A stretch of 61,206 nucleotides of DNA from Erysipelothrix rhusiopathiae (lineage in GTDB: Bacteria > Bacillota_I > Bacilli_A > Erysipelotrichales > Erysipelotrichaceae). The first letter of the stretch is position 1; each line of letters begins with the position of its first letter. The stretch is taken from assembly GCA_902772725.1 (NCBI GenBank), contig CACYBS010000014.1, positions 1-61,206 on the forward strand. The letters are read 5' to 3'. Positions 25,166 through 54,958 of this stretch are shown here, piece by piece. A program made the position numbers and the translations under genes. Under the pieces are notes generated by a model that had not been told where the DNA came from, did no database searches, and saw only the letters and a list, made by a program, of their open reading frames with translations.

Positions 25166-25765
25166 ATGAATATACAAGATTTAATTGTCGAATATAAAAG
25201 ACAGAACAACGCAACCAACGATTCGATTGCCAAAGCATTAGGCGTCACAAAATCTACGGTATCCAGATGGGTAAGAGGACAGATTAAAAATGTATCCCCT
25301 GATACCTTAGATAAGCTATCCGAGCTCCTTCAAATTGATCCGGACCAGATGACCCGCCTTACCGAGTTCAGCTTTGAAAAGCCCCTTCTAGGCATCGTAA
25401 AAGCCGGATACGGTCTTTTCGCGGAAGAAAATTTACAGGGATACATTCCTGTCAGCGAAGAAGATTATCATAACGGAGATTATTTTTTACGAGTTACCGG
25501 CAATTCTATGATCGGCGCAAAGATCCATGACAATGATTTATTGTTTGTCAAACAGGTAGACGATGTTCCCAGCAACACCATTGCGGTCGTTTTGATTGGA
25601 CAAGATGAGGTTTCTGTAAAACGGGTCATTAAAACAGATAAGTATTTATTACTCGAAGCTGCCAACCCAGATGTAGAGACCAAAGTGTTCACAAAAAAAG
25701 AAGTCATGGAGCTTCCGGTCCGCATTATCGGAAAAGTAATCTATTCCCGTACTGAAATTCAGTAG
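25166..25765 (+). CDS. LexA/HdiR-like repressor (XRE helix-turn-helix plus S24 autoprotease)
   Basis: A 199-residue self-cleaving repressor. Residues about 15-60 are an XRE helix-turn-helix (SIAKALGVTKSTVSRWVRGQ). IVKAGYG holds the Ala-Gly cleavage pair. The S24 peptidase has nucleophile Ser in TGNSMIG and general-base Lys in VSVKRVI. This is the HdiR type (Cro-like DNA-binding domain), not classical LexA with a winged helix. It may be the cell's SOS regulator or of prophage origin, but no phage genes are near. In-frame codons extend upstream to 25070, but those bases carry the operators and promoter. Confidence 0.88.
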   Translation: MNIQDLIVEYKRQNNATNDSIAKALGVTKSTVSRWVRGQIKNVSPDTLDKLSELLQIDPDQMTRLTEFSFEKPLLGIVKAGYGLFAEENLQGYIPVSEEDYHNGDYFLRVTGNSMIGAKIHDNDLLFVKQVDDVPSNTIAVVLIGQDEVSVKRVIKTDKYLLLEAANPDVETKVFTKKEVMELPVRIIGKVIYSRTEIQ

Positions 25766-45288: not shown

Positions 45289-47373
45289 TTAATTAATTAA
45301 CATAGATTCTCTTTTGGTTGAAAAAATCTCAACCATTATTGATTCACGTTCAGAAACAAATTCGTCTAAATGAGTATAATCAGAATATTTATCAAAATCG
45401 TCGAGTTTTATTCCTGTGTATGCTGCTACTTCTGTTTTTAACCAATTATCAGTTATTGAGTTCAGTGTCTTAGATCCTTTTTTAATATTATCTTTTTTCG
45501 GTAACAATGCAAAATTTGCTAAACTATCTTTTATTTGTTGATTAGTGATAGCACTTCCTACAAATGATTCCTGTGGGATAATATGATCAACCTCAAATTG
45601 AGTATTGCCTGTGTGAATAGGGGATTGCAAATTTAACACATAAGAATAGTAAAGTACCGGTGTTAACAATTTTTTAGTAGTCTGCTGTCCATTATACATG
45701 CCATGGCAAGCTTTACTTATAAAATCCTTCCATTCATCCTTACTTACTCTTGATTTAATTCTAGTTTTCCAATCTTTAATATCGTTATGCATTTTAGAAT
45801 CACCAGAGCCCCGCCATACTTTCGTTGAATATTCAAATACTAATCGGTCAAATAGTGCTCTTCCATCTTTAATCAGTGCCTTCAATTCCCCGGAAGAAAC
45901 TACTGGTTTACCTCTGTCTTTCCAATCTTTATGCATCACAGTTATAAACTCCAAAGCAATCGCATTACCTAACAGTTTACTCATAGGCTGTTTCCAGCTA
46001 AGTAGATAGTTAAAAAATGAATCTGTTTCTAAAATATTAATAACTGTATTTAATTCATTAACGATTTTATCAATATCTAAATCCCAATTAATATTCTCAT
46101 TATTTTCGAGTTCGATAACTGATTTTGCAGACATTCCCTTGTCATAAATAGAGCTAATCAACTTAAATCCCATGCTTAATTTATCCATAGAAAGCGAAGA
46201 ATTTTTATCATCGTAATTATCAAAAATTAAATGGTTTTTATCGATTCGAGAAAGCATTATCGCGGCCATATCCCAGCGTACCACAGTATCGGGAGCGTCA
46301 ATTTCCAGTCTTCTGTACATGTCTTTGACCATACTAATGACATTTTGATCTAAAACATTAACTTTTTTATTCCAATATGGCTTGGCCGATAACAACTCTT
46401 CAGCCTTAAGTTGAGTTCCTCCTCTATTAATTCTAGAAAAAATATTTTGTGCATCTAATGGAGATGCATTTGTTAAACGAATAATACCAATTCTTCCATC
46501 ATTAAAGATTTTTTCTGATTCTCCAATTGTTTGAATGCTTTTCTTTATATCGCTCCACCTTTTTGACAATTCTTTTTTAAAATTATCTTCATCTGTTATA
46601 TAGGTATTATCATTGAAATACTCATAAACGTTGGTTTCAGTAAGTAACTCTGCACTACGTTTTTCGGTGGCATCATAAATATCTAAAATAAACTTTCTAA
46701 GCAATCTGGGTTCAATTTTGTAATTATTCCTCTCCGGAGCATATTTTAGTTTTTTTGTATATTTAGTAAAGTCGAAATTCTTCTCCCATTTGCTTCCATC
46801 TTTTTTATTCTGGTGAACCATTAAAATCAAATCCAAAAGAATATTTAATCCTTTTCTTTGCTTTTCACTATCGAAAGAATCAGGAATATTGTCTTCTTCA
46901 CCTTCATATGGCTGTTGGTCTGTGTCACTTTCTCTTTGTTCTTCGGTGACAAGATATTTTTCAACTTTATTCCAATATGCATTTCTTACTTCGCTATCAT
47001 CTGCTGTATTTTTAAATGCAAGATATGTACGTGCCCATTCATATAACTCAACTGGATTTTCCCTCATGGTCTGCAAAGCATTTCTTCTTTGTCGTCCATC
47101 CAGCAACCAACCAGCATCTCTTTCTTGATTGACAATGACTACCCCGACTGGATAGTCTTGAAAAACACTCACTGCTAATTCAAAGTTTTGTTTTTTATCC
47201 CAGGTAGCCTTCCGTTGAAACCTTGGAAGCTTTAACTGATTGCCATCTAAAAAATTTACCAATGACATTGGTTCAATCGTATATCCCATACTATAGCCTC
47301 TCATTCCGTTTGTTTTAATAATTAGATCACAATCTTCAATTAACATCAAGATCTCTTTTAAAACCGAAGACAT
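45289..47373 (-). CDS. DUF262 and HNH (DUF1524-like) protein, GmrSD/SspE-type
   Basis: A 694-residue protein. The N-terminal DUF262 domain (ParB-like) carries LLDGRQRRNAL near residue 92, a variant of the DGQQR nucleotide-binding motif, preceded by LKLPRFQRKATWDKKQ. The C-terminal nuclease has EVDHIIPQESF near residue 594 and an Asn-rich follow-up (LLPKKDNIKKGSKTLN) as in DUF1524 HNH enzymes. This domain pair is that of GmrSD type IV restriction enzymes and phosphorothioate-sensing SspE. Base composition is more AT-rich than its neighbours, suggesting transfer. No modification or Ssp/Dnd partner is nearby, so it may act alone. AGAGG precedes the ATG. Confidence 0.85.
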   Translation of the reverse strand: MSSVLKEILMLIEDCDLIIKTNGMRGYSMGYTIEPMSLVNFLDGNQLKLPRFQRKATWDKKQNFELAVSVFQDYPVGVVIVNQERDAGWLLDGRQRRNALQTMRENPVELYEWARTYLAFKNTADDSEVRNAYWNKVEKYLVTEEQRESDTDQQPYEGEEDNIPDSFDSEKQRKGLNILLDLILMVHQNKKDGSKWEKNFDFTKYTKKLKYAPERNNYKIEPRLLRKFILDIYDATEKRSAELLTETNVYEYFNDNTYITDEDNFKKELSKRWSDIKKSIQTIGESEKIFNDGRIGIIRLTNASPLDAQNIFSRINRGGTQLKAEELLSAKPYWNKKVNVLDQNVISMVKDMYRRLEIDAPDTVVRWDMAAIMLSRIDKNHLIFDNYDDKNSSLSMDKLSMGFKLISSIYDKGMSAKSVIELENNENINWDLDIDKIVNELNTVINILETDSFFNYLLSWKQPMSKLLGNAIALEFITVMHKDWKDRGKPVVSSGELKALIKDGRALFDRLVFEYSTKVWRGSGDSKMHNDIKDWKTRIKSRVSKDEWKDFISKACHGMYNGQQTTKKLLTPVLYYSYVLNLQSPIHTGNTQFEVDHIIPQESFVGSAITNQQIKDSLANFALLPKKDNIKKGSKTLNSITDNWLKTEVAAYTGIKLDDFDKYSDYTHLDEFVSERESIMVEIFSTKRESMLIN

Positions 47374-47458: not shown

Positions 47459-47959
47459 TTATTTTCCGGAGCTGCCTAACTTTCCGGCCCCCCTTTTTGA
47501 TTCAATATTTTTTAAGGATTCATAGTCCAATTCTTCGCTTTCAAGCTGCGGCATACGAACCAATACACCCTGACATAAAGCCTTTTCATAAGGATAAATA
47601 ATATATTTTTCCTTTTGTTCATCACTCCATGTATCAACGATTTCTTTTTTTGCGATACGGATTGGCTTATCATTCACATTCGTAACAGGCGCAATATACT
47701 CTCCGCGATAACCGGAATCTATAACACCGGAGCGCTGAGCGATTCCTTTTGTACCGGTTGAACCTCTTTCTTTTAAAATCATGACATATTCCGGATCAAA
47801 GGCACTGGCAACGCCTAAAGGAACCATTTTAGTATGTAATGGTGCAATCTCAATATAATCTTCATCAAAGCAGGCATAAAGGTCGTATCCTGCATCTTCC
47901 TGTCTCTTGGAAGGGACTTTCCCATTTGGTTTTACTTTTGCCCAATAGAGTTTATTCAT
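47459..47959 (-). CDS. dut: dUTP diphosphatase (trimeric dUTPase)
   Basis: A 166-residue enzyme hydrolysing dUTP to dUMP, keeping uracil out of DNA. Motif 1 is DAGYDLYA, motif 2 ERGSTGTKGI, motif 3 GVIDSGYRGEYIAPVTN, motif 4 KALCQGVLVR, and motif 5 KRGAGKLGSSGK at the C-terminus. The chain is somewhat longer than usual, with a charged insert (VDTWSDEQKEKYIIYP) between motifs 3 and 4. ATG 47959 has GGAGGAAT upstream and overlaps the glycosylase gene by 8 bases. Confidence 0.94.
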   Translation of the reverse strand: MNKLYWAKVKPNGKVPSKRQEDAGYDLYACFDEDYIEIAPLHTKMVPLGVASAFDPEYVMILKERGSTGTKGIAQRSGVIDSGYRGEYIAPVTNVNDKPIRIAKKEIVDTWSDEQKEKYIIYPYEKALCQGVLVRMPQLESEELDYESLKNIESKRGAGKLGSSGK

Positions 47960-48434
47960 ATGTATTCCTCCAAATTGTTTTGTACTTTTCAATCAACTGT
48001 TCCAAAGACCATCTGGCATTGGCAGCAGAGGTCGAAGGCATAGATACTACATCCAGTTCCGGGAAATATTTTTTCATATATTTCAAACTCGTTTTACCGT
48101 TACATACAATCGTCTGAATGGATGGATTCTTTATAAGTAACCCTTTAATATCGTTGGGTTCTACTTCTTTGATGTCGGCATCCATGCTTCCTTTACGAAT
48201 GCATGTGTGACATATATCCCATAAGGCAATGTGTCCTTTTTTCAAAAGCGCCAGCTTTTGATCGTGGGTCTCATATTCCTCATCAAAAATATTCCCTAAT
48301 ATTTTCCAGAATCGATTTGTTCGATTCGCGTAATACATCGCTTGTTTTAAACTTTCAACGCTGGGCATTGAACCAACAATCAAAACCGTGTCATTACCAT
48401 GCGTAATGGGATCAAATCCTATGATTCTTTCCAT
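47952..48434 (-). CDS. DNA-deoxyinosine (hypoxanthine-DNA) glycosylase, UDG superfamily
   Basis: A 160-residue base-excision repair enzyme. The start GFDPITHGNDTVLIVGSMPSVESL (split motif GSMPS), then MYYANRTNRFWKIL and IALWDIC, and the late SMPSTSAANARWS match the single-domain hypoxanthine-DNA glycosylases of the UDG/MUG fold. It would remove deaminated adenine from DNA. It overlaps rimO by 16 bases and dut by 8, so it is translationally coupled to a nucleotide-sanitising neighbour. Confidence 0.87.
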   Translation of the reverse strand: MERIIGFDPITHGNDTVLIVGSMPSVESLKQAMYYANRTNRFWKILGNIFDEEYETHDQKLALLKKGHIALWDICHTCIRKGSMDADIKEVEPNDIKGLLIKNPSIQTIVCNGKTSLKYMKKYFPELDVVSMPSTSAANARWSLEQLIEKYKTIWRNTYE

Positions 48435-49723
48435 ACACCAATCAAATCATATGTTTTGGCATCGGTAATTTCCACCTGTACAAAATCACCTAAGGCTAAA
48501 TCTTTTTCAGATGTAAAGATAACCTGACCATCCACTTCATCCGGTGCATCCCCATAGGAACGTCCGCGATAACGGTTATTGAATGCCTCTTTTTCTTCGA
48601 CCAGCACTTCCAATGTTCGGCCGATGTTCTCTTTATTCTTTTCTAAGGAAATTTCTTCCTGTACTTCCATTAATCGTGCCAGACGGCGGTTTGCGACTGT
48701 TTCATCAATTTGATCTTCCATGTTGTAAGCAGGTGTTCCCTCTTCTCTGGAATAGGCAAAAGCACCAAAACGGTCCCAGCGGATTTCTTTAATGAAATCA
48801 ACCAGCTCCTCAAACTCTTCTTCCGTTTCCGAAGGAAAACCGACAATCGCCGTGGTTCTCAAAATCGGATGATCAAACATCTCGCGGATCTTTTTCACTA
48901 CACGAATGACATCTTCTTTTCTGCCTCTTCGATTCATCTTTTCTAAAAGACGATTCGAAGCGTGCTGCATCGGTATATCAAAATACGGAACCACCTTTTT
49001 AGATGCCTTCATGGCATCCAGAATTTCATCGGTAATTTCATCCGGATACATATACAGAATACGCAGCCAGTGAATACCATCCATCTGATCTATGTCACGA
49101 ATCAATTCCGGAAGCATCAGCTTTCCGTAATTATCCAATCCGTACTTTGTGGTATCCTGAGCAATCAGAGTTAACTCCTTGATACCATAAGAATTTAAAA
49201 CTCTTATCTCTTCCAAAATATCTTCCATCGTACGGCTTTTCTGAGGTCCGCGGATTAACGGAATAGCACAGAATGTGCAGCAGTTAGAACATCCATCCGA
49301 TATCTTACAATATGCCTGCCATGGATTTCCTGCCAGTACCCGCTCACTCTTTAAGGCTTCTATTTCTATCGGAAGACCCATAACACTGGCAAAGGTCTTC
49401 GCAAAAGATCCGTAATCGCGAATCGGAATTACCGCATCAATTTCCGGAATTTCTTCCTCCAGCGCTTTTTTATAACGCTGGGCAAGGCATCCGCATACAA
49501 TTAACTTTCCATGGTTTTTCTCTTTATATTGGGCCATCTCAAAGATGGTATCGATCGATTCTTCTTTTGCCGGTGCAATAAAACCGCAGGTATTTACTAC
49601 AATCACATCCGCATCCTCCGGTTTTGGAACGATTGTATGATTATAGGAGCGAAGCATTCCCATAATCTGTTCGGAGTCTACTAAATTTTTTGCGCAGCCT
49701 AACGATACAAATCCTACTTTCAT
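48419..49723 (-). CDS. rimO: Ribosomal protein S12 (Asp89) methylthiotransferase
   Basis: A 434-residue radical SAM enzyme that methylthiolates S12. The N-terminal UPF0004 domain has SLGCAKNLVDSE and NTCGFI with cluster Cys residues and CGCLAQRY; the radical SAM site is CSNCCTFC; a TRAM domain closes the protein. SLGCAKNLVDSE is diagnostic for RimO versus MiaB. It overlaps yhaM by 4 bases (ATGA). Confidence 0.95.
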   Translation of the reverse strand: MKVGFVSLGCAKNLVDSEQIMGMLRSYNHTIVPKPEDADVIVVNTCGFIAPAKEESIDTIFEMAQYKEKNHGKLIVCGCLAQRYKKALEEEIPEIDAVIPIRDYGSFAKTFASVMGLPIEIEALKSERVLAGNPWQAYCKISDGCSNCCTFCAIPLIRGPQKSRTMEDILEEIRVLNSYGIKELTLIAQDTTKYGLDNYGKLMLPELIRDIDQMDGIHWLRILYMYPDEITDEILDAMKASKKVVPYFDIPMQHASNRLLEKMNRRGRKEDVIRVVKKIREMFDHPILRTTAIVGFPSETEEEFEELVDFIKEIRWDRFGAFAYSREEGTPAYNMEDQIDETVANRRLARLMEVQEEISLEKNKENIGRTLEVLVEEKEAFNNRYRGRSYGDAPDEVDGQVIFTSEKDLALGDFVQVEITDAKTYDLIGVWKES

Positions 49724-50652
49724 TTCTTTTCATCCTTTCGCCGATAAATCATGCGATTTTCTAATGCGAAAACCTTAGGTCCGAAATGACCCGGATCTGT
49801 CACTTCCATAGATGCCTTCATCATAAATAATTTGGCATCTAAGTTATCAATAGAAGCTAACACCTCTGCCTCCGGAATCATCGGTAATACAGGGGAGCCA
49901 AATTCCATTCTTCCATGATGGGATAAAACCATATGTTTAAGCAGCAGAACGCTTTCACTGTCCTGTAATCCTAAATCCCATGCGATGCGGTCGATTCTGG
50001 AAGCCATCAAAGAAATATGTCCGATCAAATTACCGGCTGTTGTGTATTCCGGTAAAACCGGTTCGGATAACTCTTCGATTTTCCCGATGTCGTGCATTAA
50101 TACACCCGCTACCAGTAAATCGTGATCCAGCCAGTCATAAAGCTGTTCAATAGCCATGGCCATACGCATCATGGAAATCGTATGGTAAGCCAGTCCGCCA
50201 ACATAGTTGTGATGATTACGGGTAGCAGCAGGATAAGTATAGAAATCATTTTCGGATTCCTCCAGAACCTGCGAGACAATGACACGCAATTCCTCATCCT
50301 GAATGGATTCTACATATCCATTGATTTCTTCCTGCATTTTTTCACGGGGAATCGGTGCACCGCGGACATATTTGGAAATGTCCTCATCCGGCTGTTCAAC
50401 CAGCTTGCGCACCCGCATCTGCAGTGCATTGCGGTGTAAAATAATATCACCCTGGGCTTCGACAACCATTCCGACATGATATTTGGAAATCATCTCTTCC
50501 GTCAAATTCCAAAATTTCGCATCCAGAACACCCGATGCATCTTCCAATATTAAAGAAAGATACGGAGTATCTTTCGCTGTTTTTCCTTTATCACACTTTG
50601 TAATTAAACAAAGAAGAGAAACCTTCCCTTCTTCTTGAATATCCTTAATCAT
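49720..50652 (-). CDS. yhaM: 3'-5' exoribonuclease YhaM
   Basis: A 310-residue nuclease trimming RNA and DNA 3' ends. An OB-fold lies at residues about 10-90 (LSLILEDASGVLDAKFW), followed by an HD domain with NHHNYVGGLAYHT, MHDIGK and LKHMVLSHHG, whose histidines and Asp bind metal. The C-terminus is a basic tail (RRKDEKK). GAGAGGG precedes the ATG. It overlaps the glycosyltransferase-RecX gene by 8 bases and rimO by 4. Confidence 0.93.
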   Translation of the reverse strand: MIKDIQEEGKVSLLCLITKCDKGKTAKDTPYLSLILEDASGVLDAKFWNLTEEMISKYHVGMVVEAQGDIILHRNALQMRVRKLVEQPDEDISKYVRGAPIPREKMQEEINGYVESIQDEELRVIVSQVLEESENDFYTYPAATRNHHNYVGGLAYHTISMMRMAMAIEQLYDWLDHDLLVAGVLMHDIGKIEELSEPVLPEYTTAGNLIGHISLMASRIDRIAWDLGLQDSESVLLLKHMVLSHHGRMEFGSPVLPMIPEAEVLASIDNLDAKLFMMKASMEVTDPGHFGPKVFALENRMIYRRKDEKK

Positions 50653-52606
50653 TTAATCCCTCTCTTTCCAAAGCATCCATTATTTCAGAAAGCGAGAAAC
50701 CTTTCCTTAAACAATAGATTTTTATTTTTTCAGTTCTCCGAGGTTCTTCCATCGATTTATACAACCGTTTCGCTTTATCAACCGCATTTTGAACAGCCGC
50801 ATTAGAATCAATTTCAAATTCAAATTGATCGCTTGCTTCTCTGGCTACATCGGACGAAAATCCTTTGGCAATCAGCTTCTGGGTCAGTTCCCATCGAGCG
50901 TTATTGATACTTCGATCCGTTAAAGTAGGCGCAATCATTCTGGCTGCCTCAGCGGCATTGTGAAGCTCCTGCTCTTTATCTAAAGCGTTGCACGCTTGTT
51001 CAATATATGCTTCATCGATTCCGACAAGCCTTAGTTTCTTTTGAATTTTAGGAATACCATAGCCGGAATAGAACCAGTAATTTGCCTTTTCCATGGCATA
51101 TTGATAATCATCCAGGAGCCCTGCATCCAATAAAGCCTCAATAATTGCGTCGGTCTCCATATCGTTGGTTTCTAATTTTGTTTTACAGTAATTGCGCATT
51201 TCCAAGATTGTATAATCATTGGCCATGGCACGTCTTTTGGCCTTCTGCATTCCAATAAACAAATGTTGAACGGCCATGTATTCATCTACAAGATAAGCAT
51301 CGATTGTCTGTCCAACCGATAATTCCATTTCATAGAAATCCTCAAGAGGAAGTAACAGTTTCTTAAAAGCTCCCTCCCGCCAGATAGATAACTCTACATA
51401 ATCCTGCTTCAAAGAAATATTTCGGATCGTATAGGCGATATTCTGCTGGCGTATTGCATAATAATATACATTTAATACATTTTTGGCAAATTCTTCGGTA
51501 GTATAAGGAGCCGCCTTATCGACGCAATACTGGATAAACTTTTCTCTCTCAGTTCTGTCAATCGAAAAATACTGTTTGAATTTTTCAGCAAGTTCTATTT
51601 CGTCATCAAAGTAATAACCGCTCTTGCCTTCATCAATCAAATCTTCCAGCACTTCATCACGGCGTCCAAAAACCGGAAGTCCAGTTGCGAGTGCTTCAAT
51701 ATATGTCATACCCTGTGTTTCAGATAACGAACCGGATACAAAACAATCAAAGGCCGCATAGTAATACGCAATGTCTTCTTTAGGTTTGCGTCCCAAAAAA
51801 TGAACCCGGTCTTCTACCTGATATTCCTCCACCAGCCTATGATAATAGTCTTCATCCGTGCCGCCTCCTACGATCACAAGATGGAGACGCGGATCATCGC
51901 TGCAGGCAACGGCCTTGATAGGAATGCTGATCATTTTTTCCTTAGCAATCCGTCCTACGTATACCACAACATGATCATCTTCGCCTAGATTTAAAGAATT
52001 ACGTATTTCTTTAACTCTTTTTTCGTCTAAAGATTTGCGGTCAAATAAACTGAGATCCAAACCTGTCGGCACGACAAAAATAGGTGTGTGAACACCATAT
52101 TCTAACAATCGATTTTTTGTCTTCTGGCTGGGAGCAATAACCGCCTGCGTGCGGTTTGCGATCATGCTGGAAAGCGAACGAATCGCCTTCTTTTCAACCG
52201 TATCTAATGCTCCGAAATCCAAAGGGTTCACGTAATGCGTATAATCCTCATACATCGTATGATACGTATAAACCAAAGGAACCTTCAACACTTTGGCCAC
52301 ATGACGTGCGAAAAAGCCGATACCGGCTTCTGTTTGCATATGAATAATGTCTAAGTCCATTTTAGTGACATAGTCCTTTCCAACAAATTGAAAAGGACTA
52401 GACATTTTATATCCGTAAAATCTTTTTAATTCAATGCCGGGCAGGCGAAGAATATGATCTTCCAATACAACAGATGGACTGTGATGATTAGAAATCACAT
52501 AAACAACATGCCCCTGCTTTTCCAAGGCTTCTTTCAAAGTGGCGACACTGGAAACAACGCCATTAATATCCGGCAGATATGCGTCAGTAAATAAGCCTAT
52601 TCGCAT
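50645..52606 (-). CDS. Glycosyltransferase family 4 fused to full-length RecX
   Basis: A 653-residue fusion. Residues 1-385 are a GT-B glycosyltransferase like the diacylglycerol glucosyltransferases of Firmicutes: MRIGLFTDAYLPDINGVVSS, VVYVGRIAKEKM and the EX7E segment SETQGMTYIEALATGLP. From about residue 390 the chain matches RecX, including its N-terminal beta region (NISLKQDYVELSIW) and the three-helix repeats (AMANDYTILEMRNYC, LLDDYQYAMEKANYWF, GIPKIQKKLRLVGIDEAYI). The RecX part is about 260 residues, like B. subtilis RecX. I read the junction codon by codon near 51430; it is open, and no in-frame ATG would start RecX separately. GGAGGG precedes the ATG. Confidence 0.88.
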   Translation of the reverse strand: MRIGLFTDAYLPDINGVVSSVATLKEALEKQGHVVYVISNHHSPSVVLEDHILRLPGIELKRFYGYKMSSPFQFVGKDYVTKMDLDIIHMQTEAGIGFFARHVAKVLKVPLVYTYHTMYEDYTHYVNPLDFGALDTVEKKAIRSLSSMIANRTQAVIAPSQKTKNRLLEYGVHTPIFVVPTGLDLSLFDRKSLDEKRVKEIRNSLNLGEDDHVVVYVGRIAKEKMISIPIKAVACSDDPRLHLVIVGGGTDEDYYHRLVEEYQVEDRVHFLGRKPKEDIAYYYAAFDCFVSGSLSETQGMTYIEALATGLPVFGRRDEVLEDLIDEGKSGYYFDDEIELAEKFKQYFSIDRTEREKFIQYCVDKAAPYTTEEFAKNVLNVYYYAIRQQNIAYTIRNISLKQDYVELSIWREGAFKKLLLPLEDFYEMELSVGQTIDAYLVDEYMAVQHLFIGMQKAKRRAMANDYTILEMRNYCKTKLETNDMETDAIIEALLDAGLLDDYQYAMEKANYWFYSGYGIPKIQKKLRLVGIDEAYIEQACNALDKEQELHNAAEAARMIAPTLTDRSINNARWELTQKLIAKGFSSDVAREASDQFEFEIDSNAAVQNAVDKAKRLYKSMEEPRRTEKIKIYCLRKGFSLSEIMDALEREGLND

Positions 52607-52622
52607 AGAATCCCTCCCTTAA

Positions 52623-53675
52623 TTAATCGGGTGAAAAGAAATTCATCTGGTTTGCTGCAGCTTCTTCCTTGTCGTAACGGCCTTTGACAACCGCAAATAC
52701 GATTCCACCAATCAACAGTATAATGTGATACGTTGAGAAACGCCATAAAATCATAACAGCGCTTGTAAGTTTCCCCATGAGTGGGCCAAACAATAATGAG
52801 AATACAATTTCAGTTCCACCGCTGGCACCCGGAACCGGGATAAAGCTGTTTGCCATCGTAACAAATCCGGACAACGCGATTACATCAACAATCTTAGATG
52901 GTGCAAGATCGATGCCTAACGCCCGTCCGATAACATACGGAAGGCTATAGAGTAATGTCAATCGTACAACGTTGATTAATGCACATATAACAATTGTCTT
53001 TTTATCTTTTGTAAGGTTCTTAATTTCTCCGGTAAAAGACTTTACCTGTAATGTCCAGGAATCCAGTGTCTTTTGCGGATCCTTAACGATATGGATCTTA
53101 CCTAAGAAATTGGCTGCCCAGCCTGATAATTTAATATAGACATTAGGGAATAATGCCATTGTATATAATGCCAGGATGACAACCGCATTCACAAAATAGC
53201 CCAATAAGATGATATTAAACCATCCGGATTGCTGGCTGTAATAAGAGAATTTCAAAAGGAACATGATGGTAACATAAATCATCATTGTCGTTTGATAAAT
53301 GATGAAATCCGCCCACAAAAGGCTGGCACCATCACTAACCTTGATTCCCTGCTTTTTCATAATATAAGCCTGAGCAAACTGTCCACCGGTACTACTCGGT
53401 GTAATACCGGAAAAGAAAGTTCCGACAAAGGCAACAATAGCTCCGTTTTTAATACTGTAATCTGGAACATATTTCCGTCCCATCACAAAGTAAACCAATC
53501 CCCAGACTACAGTATAAAGAATACCCCAGGACAGAACAATCAGCAGCCATAAAGGAGACATTTTAGAAATGGCTCCCATTACCTCAGAAAAATTGTCTTT
53601 TAATGAGAAATAGAGTACAACTCCTGTAAATACAAGGATTAAACCAAAATTGAGGAAATAATTGTTCTTTTTCAT
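52623..53675 (-). CDS. UPF0104 / lysylphosphatidylglycerol synthase TM-type membrane protein
   Basis: A 350-residue polytopic protein with about eight hydrophobic helices, resembling the flippase-like membrane half of MprF. Typical pieces are TFFSGITPSSTGGQFAQAYIMKKQG and NSFIPVPGASGGTEIVFSLLFG. Such proteins next to lipid glycosyltransferases are thought to move or anchor glycolipids. AGGTGG lies before the ATG; 16 bases separate it from the downstream fusion gene and 14 from the upstream glycosyltransferase. Confidence 0.88.
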   Translation of the reverse strand: MKKNNYFLNFGLILVFTGVVLYFSLKDNFSEVMGAISKMSPLWLLIVLSWGILYTVVWGLVYFVMGRKYVPDYSIKNGAIVAFVGTFFSGITPSSTGGQFAQAYIMKKQGIKVSDGASLLWADFIIYQTTMMIYVTIMFLLKFSYYSQQSGWFNIILLGYFVNAVVILALYTMALFPNVYIKLSGWAANFLGKIHIVKDPQKTLDSWTLQVKSFTGEIKNLTKDKKTIVICALINVVRLTLLYSLPYVIGRALGIDLAPSKIVDVIALSGFVTMANSFIPVPGASGGTEIVFSLLFGPLMGKLTSAVMILWRFSTYHIILLIGGIVFAVVKGRYDKEEAAANQMNFFSPD

Positions 53676-53689
53676 AATCCACCTGCCGC

Positions 53690-54772
53690 TTATTTTTCAG
53701 TCTGTTTACTGTTCTTTCGCTTATTCTTTATCTGTTTCCGCTTTTCAATATAAGCACTGATGTAAAAGTCTTTCCACATTTTTAATACATGCTCTTTAGA
53801 ATAAAAATCACTGATAGCTTTTGATTCCTTCCGATATTTTTCATATGTTTCAGGATCTTCTTTCAACATGCGAAGACAGTGGATAAAGCCTTCGTTATCA
53901 TCGGCTTTTAAATAATGATCAAAGAGAATATCTTTATATAAATCCAAATCTCTTATAACCATAGGAACTTCGATATTCGATGCTTCCAATATTGTCATCG
54001 GGAACAATTCATTAAAGCTTGGGACAAAGAGAACATCACACATATTATAAATATCAACCATTTCATCCCTCGGAACAATACCTAAGAATGTAACGTTGTC
54101 AGGATGATTCTCTTCGAGCTTTTTCAGTTTTTCATATCCATCCGTAATCCGTCCGAACGAAAAACCTCCCGCCCATACAAATTGAATCTCCGGAAGCTTT
54201 TCAGCTACCTGACAAAATTCCAAAACCCCTTTACGGGTCTGAACCTGTCCGGCTCCCAGCACAACAAATGCTTCCGGATCAATGTTGTACTTTTTTCGAA
54301 TTTGAATTCGTTCTTCATTGGATTTACGATAAAACTTATCTTTAGAAACGTAATTTGGAATGTAATAAATCTGATTTTCCGGAATACCGAGTTTTACCAG
54401 CTTCGGGATAAAGCTTGGATTCACCACTACCAATCGATCGGCAGATTTATAGAAATTTATCAAATACGAATCAAATATTTTCATTATTGGACCGGGCAGC
54501 TGTAAACTCCCTTCCATGGTTTCAGGCAAAAAGTGACAATAAGCAATATTTGAACATGTACTGCTTTTCATTTTGACAAAGAATTGAAGATCAACCGTAT
54601 GAAAATGCTGGATATCCGCTCTCGAATTCCATTTATTCACACGGACATCAAAAAGATCCGGTTCTCCTTCTTTAATCAATTTAACTTGTTCCTCATACGC
54701 GCTTCCAACGCCTTGTCCGTCCACTTTATCAGCACTGGAATAAACGTTAATTCGTAATTTTGGATGTTTCAC
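53690..54772 (-). CDS. Glycosyltransferase family 4
   Basis: A 360-residue GT-B glycosyltransferase. AYCHFLPETMEGSL and the acceptor loop VVVNPSFIPKLVKLG form the N-terminal half; VLGAGQVQTRKGVLEFC and FVPSFNELFPMTILEAS (EX7E) bind the nucleotide sugar. It pairs with the next lipid-type transferase, as in two-step synthesis of diglucosyl-diacylglycerol in streptococci and relatives; that pairing is inferred. The start is GTG 54772: it lies 25 bases after a perfect -10 box, whereas the in-frame ATG 54835 is upstream of the promoter. The C-terminus is Lys-rich. Confidence 0.85.
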   Translation of the reverse strand: MKHPKLRINVYSSADKVDGQGVGSAYEEQVKLIKEGEPDLFDVRVNKWNSRADIQHFHTVDLQFFVKMKSSTCSNIAYCHFLPETMEGSLQLPGPIMKIFDSYLINFYKSADRLVVVNPSFIPKLVKLGIPENQIYYIPNYVSKDKFYRKSNEERIQIRKKYNIDPEAFVVLGAGQVQTRKGVLEFCQVAEKLPEIQFVWAGGFSFGRITDGYEKLKKLEENHPDNVTFLGIVPRDEMVDIYNMCDVLFVPSFNELFPMTILEASNIEVPMVIRDLDLYKDILFDHYLKADDNEGFIHCLRMLKEDPETYEKYRKESKAISDFYSKEHVLKMWKDFYISAYIEKRKQIKNKRKNSKQTEK

Positions 54773-54796
54773 AATAAACACTTCTTTCCTTTTTAC

Positions 54797-54825
54797 ATTA
54801 TAACAATAACTTAATTTTATGTCTA
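54797..54825 (-). promoter_or_regulatory. Promoter of the seven-gene glycosyltransferase-to-dut operon
   Basis: On the minus strand TAGACA (54825-54820), 17 bases, TATAAT (54802-54797). It decides the GTG start at 54772. Confidence 0.8.
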
Positions 54826-54888
54826 TGAGATACATTGAAGGATTGTTAATGGGAATGAAAGAAATTATGTATTAGATTCCTTAAACAT

Positions 54889-54919
54889 GAGAAAGCCCTC
54901 TGTCGGGGAACAAAGGGCT
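54889..54919. terminator. Symmetric hairpin, possible bidirectional terminator
   Basis: GAGAAAGCCCT and AGGGCTTTTCTC pair over 11 bp with one bulged base. Only short T-runs, within the stem, are present. It lies between the glycosyltransferase promoter and the EIIA gene. Confidence 0.5.
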
Positions 54920-54958
54920 TTTCTCTAGAAAGTTTTAAGAAAGGGAATTTGATTATGA

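Follow-up and report, generated by a model that had tools for sequence, protein, structure and literature searches.

A glycolipid-type glycosyltransferase joined in frame to RecX in the Erysipelotrichales, and its probable origin from overlapping operon neighbours

Introduction

Binding of RecX to RecA filaments has been shown for Escherichia coli and Bacillus subtilis (PMC9252578, PMC3527212). In B. subtilis the protein forms foci on the nucleoid and expression of its gene is reported to be independent of SOS (PMC3527212). The long RecX of the Bacillota, represented by B. subtilis YfhG (264 aa) and the solved structures 3d5l and 3e3v, combines a beta region with tandem three-helix repeats. 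The Acholeplasma-type alpha-monoglucosyl-diacylglycerol synthase (Mgs, NF049988) is a glycosyltransferase (GT) of GT-B fold with an EX7E pair and a His/Arg/Lys motif. Related glycolipid synthases bind the membrane peripherally, in the case of Mycoplasma MG517, a different enzyme, with an amphipathic helix (PMC6506492). Gene fusions within operons, such as those of his, join adjacent co-transcribed genes in frame (PMC8305728).

Here we describe a gene that joins a Mgs-like glycosyltransferase to RecX. The window is the whole 61,206-nucleotide stretch analysed, from contig CACYBS010000014.1 of Erysipelothrix rhusiopathiae, and belongs to a fragmented draft genome (404 contigs, 85% complete). An initial sequence-only reading had proposed the fusion and could see no reason for it. 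No description of a GT-RecX fusion was found in the open-access literature searched, and a paper on Clostridioides difficile UgtA, checked for a link to recX, contained none. While each of the two families is well known, neither their joined architecture nor an origin from an overlapping pair was found described in that literature; the architecture is probably already present in protein databases, unremarked.

Results and Discussion

The fusion gene (50645..52606, minus strand) is a single open reading frame of 653 codons without interruption. It is preceded by AAGGGAGGG (52612..52620, minus strand), the sole good Shine-Dalgarno sequence found for the frame. The junction (residues 381-394; 51425..51466, minus strand) does not vary in length among the 42 aligned orthologues, and no gap falls anywhere between residues 366 and 399, which is what a junction formed only once should show. 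In the model of the full-length protein the last helix of the glycosyltransferase (370-390) runs with high confidence directly into the first RecX strand (392-399). The pTM of this model is 0.63, so the placement of the two domains relative to each other is not fixed. None of the internal ATG, GTG or TTG codons near the junction of the window gene has a Shine-Dalgarno sequence before it. In a survey of 100 distinct fused genes, the combination of start codon and Shine-Dalgarno sequence occurred near the junction in 2, compared with 1-6 for other internal regions and with 51 of 61 genes having such a sequence at the true start. Production of a free RecX by internal initiation was rejected on these grounds. 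The open junction and the missing start of RecX, both pointed out in the sequence-only reading, hold for the window gene and for the fused genes surveyed, and the reading frame predicts that glycosyltransferase and RecX are one chain.

The N-terminal half (residues 1-390; 51437..52606, minus strand) matches the GT4 families PF00534 (2e-32) and PF13439 (1.1e-29). Its best NCBIfam match is to Mgs (NF049988, 1.7e-75), covering residues 1-390. However, the score of 254.9 bits lies under the equivalog cut-off of 400, and the half is therefore classed as Mgs-like rather than as Mgs. Residues H116, R219 and K224 and the EX7E pair E296..E304, which we take to be those expected for catalysis in GT4 enzymes, are invariant in 42/42 orthologues. 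Foldseek matches of the full-length model include MshA, BshA and PimB', pointing to a GT-B fold; with this fold, the EX7E pair and the donor-binding residues, the half has the features of a GT4 enzyme. The likeness to Acholeplasma-type Mgs extends to the full-length profile match, fold and motifs. We also count as a likeness that the window glycosyltransferase has a second glycolipid-type glycosyltransferase (IagA/BgsA-like) and a flippase-like gene as neighbours. The window protein differs in its C-terminal RecX, in its lower score and in that its substrate is putative. By its family, the half would be an active enzyme whose product, formed at the inner leaflet, is probably alpha-monoglucosyl-diacylglycerol, and the fusion protein would be membrane-associated.

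The top 50 Foldseek matches of the full-length model were all glycosyltransferases, and the C-terminal half (residues 391-653; 50648..51436, minus strand) was therefore modelled alone. Residues 388-653 gave a complete RecX fold (pLDDT 95.4), in which a three-strand N-terminal region stands ahead of the tandem three-helix repeats; the best fold matches in the PDB were RecX 3d5l, 3e3v and 3dfg, with TM-scores, by target, of 0.80, 0.88 and 0.79, respectively. Structures 3e3v and 3d5l were also the top matches of a profile built from C-terminal halves. Residues 428-650 match the full-length RecX model NF010733 (PRK14135) at 4.7e-23, though the 82 bits scored do not reach the equivalog cut-off of 240. 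Among the Pfam domains, PF21981 (RecX_HTH3) is above its cut-off in the window protein and was detected in 42/42 orthologues, and PF02631 and PF21982 fall just under theirs. RecX signature residues are retained. By profile and by modelled fold alike, then, the C-terminal half belongs to the RecX family, and the proposal that it is a full RecX including the N-terminal beta region, joined in frame to a lipid-type glycosyltransferase, is borne out. It is of the same length class as the long RecX of the Bacillota, with which it shares beta region, repeats and signature residues and on which its model superposes. It differs from YfhG in being the C-terminal domain of a glycosyltransferase instead of a free protein; its score, 82 bits, also lies under the NF010733 cut-off of 240. 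By analogy with E. coli and B. subtilis RecX, it should bind RecA filaments. The approximately 45 N-terminal residues of RecX (within 50648-51445, minus strand) weakly resemble small Mop/OB-like beta barrels (1fr3, rmsd 1.0 over 47 columns, E 0.07).

A search of the draft genome for a second recX, which the sequence-only reading had called for, found none, and the fusion gene holds the sole RecX detected there. The recA gene of this genome lies in two pieces on two contigs (C100:16568-17191 and C83:14558-14713), probably an assembly break.

The fusion gene lies within an operon on the minus strand. Upstream are a flippase-like LPG_synthase_TM/TIGR00374 protein (52623..53675, minus strand), which also precedes the glycosyltransferase in sister families, and a second GT4 enzyme closest to the IagA/BgsA family of lipoteichoic acid glycolipid anchor synthesis (53690..54835, minus strand, exact start uncertain). 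Downstream, yhaM, for a 3'-5' exoribonuclease (49720..50652, minus strand), shares 8 nt with the RecX end of the fusion gene; its place directly behind recX is conserved in the order Erysipelotrichales and in sister families. Next come rimO, for the ribosomal protein S12 methylthiotransferase (48419..49723, minus strand), a DNA-deoxyinosine glycosylase (47952..48434, minus strand, TIGR04274 above cut-off) and a dUTPase-like protein (47459..47992, minus strand). A promoter-like site (54797..54825, minus strand; an 11/12 consensus match with TG before the -10) is found at the head of the operon, and a terminator-like hairpin of 13 pairs (54892..54921, minus strand) lies upstream. The operon had been described as one of nucleic-acid genes, comprising yhaM, the deoxyinosine glycosylase and dut. 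These three are indeed members, but so is rimO, and with the flippase-like gene and the second glycosyltransferase upstream the operon is not confined to nucleic-acid functions. Going by the family names, the BgsA/IagA-like and Mgs-like glycosyltransferases and the flippase-like protein would fit synthesis of a lipoteichoic acid anchor glycolipid. Beside dut lies a gene for a 694-aa protein (45289-47373, minus strand) in which a GmrSD_N (DUF262-type) domain is recognised (PF03235, 3.1e-16). This protein also weakly matches the defence models HEC-05 and PDC-M55C and is a candidate for a role in modification-dependent restriction or in defence.

SOS control of the operon was considered and rejected. 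The SOS-like pattern was found 14 times against 17.5 expected by chance, no such site lies at the operon head, and no canonical LexA scored above the cut-off in the draft genome (85% complete). A LexA-like peptidase-domain repressor is encoded at 25376-25741 (plus strand); it matches LexA positions 79-196 and scores under the cut-off.

The taxa with the fused architecture were then tabulated, as the sequence-only reading had suggested. Full-length fusions were found in 49 of the 58 genera drawn from the window's family. In an order-wide draw, RecX was present in 236/245 genomes; where the reading frame was visible (230 genomes), it was fused in 198, a count that takes in six genes truncated at the edge of a contig or frameshifted within the glycosyltransferase, and unfused in 32 (~86% fused). 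Among these, a second family was fused in 36/36 scored genomes, so that the fused form spans two families of the Erysipelotrichales. Carriers include Faecalicoccus, Holdemanella, Absicoccus, Longicatena, Amedibacillus, Merdibacter, Dielma, Traorella, Breznakia, Floccifex, Bulleidia, Lactimicrobium, Erysipelothrix tonsillarum, E. inopinata and E. aquatica, as well as Thomasclavelia (family Coprobacillaceae, L104), and 29 fusion orthologues were extracted from other genera. Outside the order, a phylum-wide draw of 295 genomes yielded no fusion, the only match being a weak one in a 1002-aa frame (G575). The other families sampled in the class and phylum have a separate RecX of roughly 190-310 aa. 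In one genome assembled as a single 2.9-Mb contig (G097), the fusion gene (L186, 2326-4271) is frameshifted within the glycosyltransferase: the GT model is matched from 24 to 215 in one frame and from 215 to 381, together with RecX, in the next, with a 19-nt overlap. This may be a pseudogene, a sequencing error or a case of frameshifting.

This distribution bears on whether a sequencing or assembly error has erased a stop between two real genes. The window does come from a draft in 404 contigs. However, the number of independent genomes that show the same in-frame fusion is well above one hundred and spans many genera; among them are named isolates (Faecalicoccus, Holdemanella, Amedibacillus, Dielma, Erysipelothrix) and genomes assembled as one contig (G030, G051). 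Such an error can be set aside with near certainty.

Unfused relatives of the two genes point to how they were joined. In two sister families of the same class, f8 and f19, the order flippase-GT-recX-yhaM is found unfused, in the same order and on the same strand, at 14/19 and 2/3 loci, respectively (L142, L155, L166-L168, L173, L175-L184). At 16/16 of these unfused loci the glycosyltransferase stops 27 nt past a conserved Tyr codon and recX continues across the stop in the +1 frame; at 13/16 a GTG, inferred as the start codon, would begin recX 23 nt inside the glycosyltransferase gene. Between the Tyr codon of the last GT motif and the first RecX strand lie 34-43 nt, commonly 37, at the unfused loci where this was measurable; in fused genes the spacing is always 39 nt. 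Given this spacing and the +1 frame, an indel in the overlap that removes a net one base, or adds two, yields the fusion. The sister-family operon thus has the genes, order and strand of the fusion operon, with recX in the +1 frame over the 3' end of mgs, and differs in having two overlapping genes where the Erysipelotrichales have one. The judgement that there was no reason to join the two proteins does not survive this comparison: an ordinary reason is that the same genes overlap in the same operon order in sister families. A resemblance to operon fusions such as those of his is evident in the in-frame joining of adjacent co-transcribed genes; the glycosyltransferase and RecX, however, belong to unrelated processes rather than to one pathway.

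A glycosyltransferase tree rooted on f8/f19 places both fused families together (100/99), with split loci nested within, and requires five changes: one fusion and four fissions. Adjacent unfused genes in the same order are therefore found outside the fused clade, as expected for an operon fusion. Some inner branches of the tree, including the placement of split loci, are weakly supported, and an extra event, for example a second fusion, may have occurred. Because the basal branches of the RecX-only tree are too poorly resolved for counting fusions, the glycosyltransferase tree was used for this. It supports a single fusion followed by at least four re-splittings, along with recurrent loss of one or the other half. 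Most likely, a small frameshift between mgs and recX, which overlapped as neighbours, gave rise to the fusion.

The halves have since met different fates. At a number of loci the glycosyltransferase is lost and recX stands directly before yhaM (L125-L131, L134, L136, L163, L164, L195, L196, L198-L200, L204), and one such group of seven nests within the fused genes in the RecX tree. At L132 (5986-7143) and L135 (5983-7356) RecX carries a stump of the glycosyltransferase N-domain without the catalytic C-domain, which we read as intermediate stages of decay. At L137 the glycosyltransferase is kept with no RecX beside it, and none was found in that genome (G033). The glycosyltransferase is also gone from four f8 loci (L170, L171, L172, L174), where flippase, recX and yhaM are contiguous; its loss thus recurs outside the fused clade. 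Between closely related fused genes dN/dS ranged from 0.03 to 0.13 in the glycosyltransferase half and from 0.02 to 0.28 in the RecX half, indicating purifying selection on both. RecX diverges faster, with a mean pairwise identity of 32% against 52%, is strongly diverged in three genomes (G040, G009, G143) and is absent from a few.

The strong divergence in some genomes and the absence from a few, together with the borderline Pfam scores of the window protein, would suit a RecX half that is vestigial or has been recruited elsewhere, for instance as an oligomerisation or regulatory module of the glycosyltransferase, and no longer regulates RecA. We regard this as improbable, since the half is under purifying selection, keeps its signature residues and full fold, and is the one retained alone once the glycosyltransferase is lost, and since no other RecX was found in nearly all genomes.

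The sequence-only reading had further suggested that the fusion tethers a RecA modulator to the membrane or couples the state of the envelope to SOS. The glycosyltransferase could anchor RecX and RecA filaments at the membrane, or the state of glycolipid synthesis could alter RecX activity, linking the envelope to recombination or SOS. The retention of the fusion in ~86% of scored genomes, the constant junction with its helix running into the RecX fold, the lack of an independent RecX start and the peripheral membrane binding of related synthases are all compatible with such a link. However, the halves have separated at least four times; RecX-only species, stumps and a GT-only locus exist; SOS-like sites are not enriched and canonical LexA was not found; and the pTM of the full-length model does not indicate firm packing between the domains. 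We therefore think functional coupling unlikely. That RecA control is confined to, or modulated by, the membrane and its glycolipids, with the sole RecX carried on a membrane-associated glycolipid synthase, is equally doubtful.

Our preferred explanation, held with fair though not full confidence, is an operon fusion in an ancestor of the Erysipelotrichales that gave one bifunctional chain of largely independent domains. The ancestral operon would have been flippase-mgs-recX-yhaM with mgs and recX as overlapping neighbours, an arrangement that had probably already tied translation of recX to that of mgs. A small indel in the overlap would have joined the genes and turned translational coupling into a covalent one. 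The first half of the chain would be a GT4 glycolipid synthase and the second the cell's only RecX, remodelling RecA-ssDNA filaments, each most likely acting on its own; on the models, they have a GT-B and a RecX fold, respectively. Attachment of RecX to a membrane-associated enzyme would be tolerated rather than needed. Some findings fit the operon-fusion explanation less well. The fusion has long been kept in most genomes and its junction length is constant, so the joined form could be useful; the RecX half diverges faster than its partner; and the weakly placed split loci leave room for more than a single origin.

Conclusions

The Erysipelotrichales include common gut bacteria as well as Erysipelothrix, and in them the only RecA modulator is carried at the C-terminus of a putative membrane glycolipid enzyme. 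If annotation named the glycosyltransferase alone, recX would be hidden in these genomes, and methods based on domain fusion would connect lipid synthesis with recombination, perhaps wrongly. Moreover, fused, re-split, RecX-only and GT-only species exist side by side. They constitute a natural experiment, which lets the cost or use of fusing unrelated proteins be tested directly.
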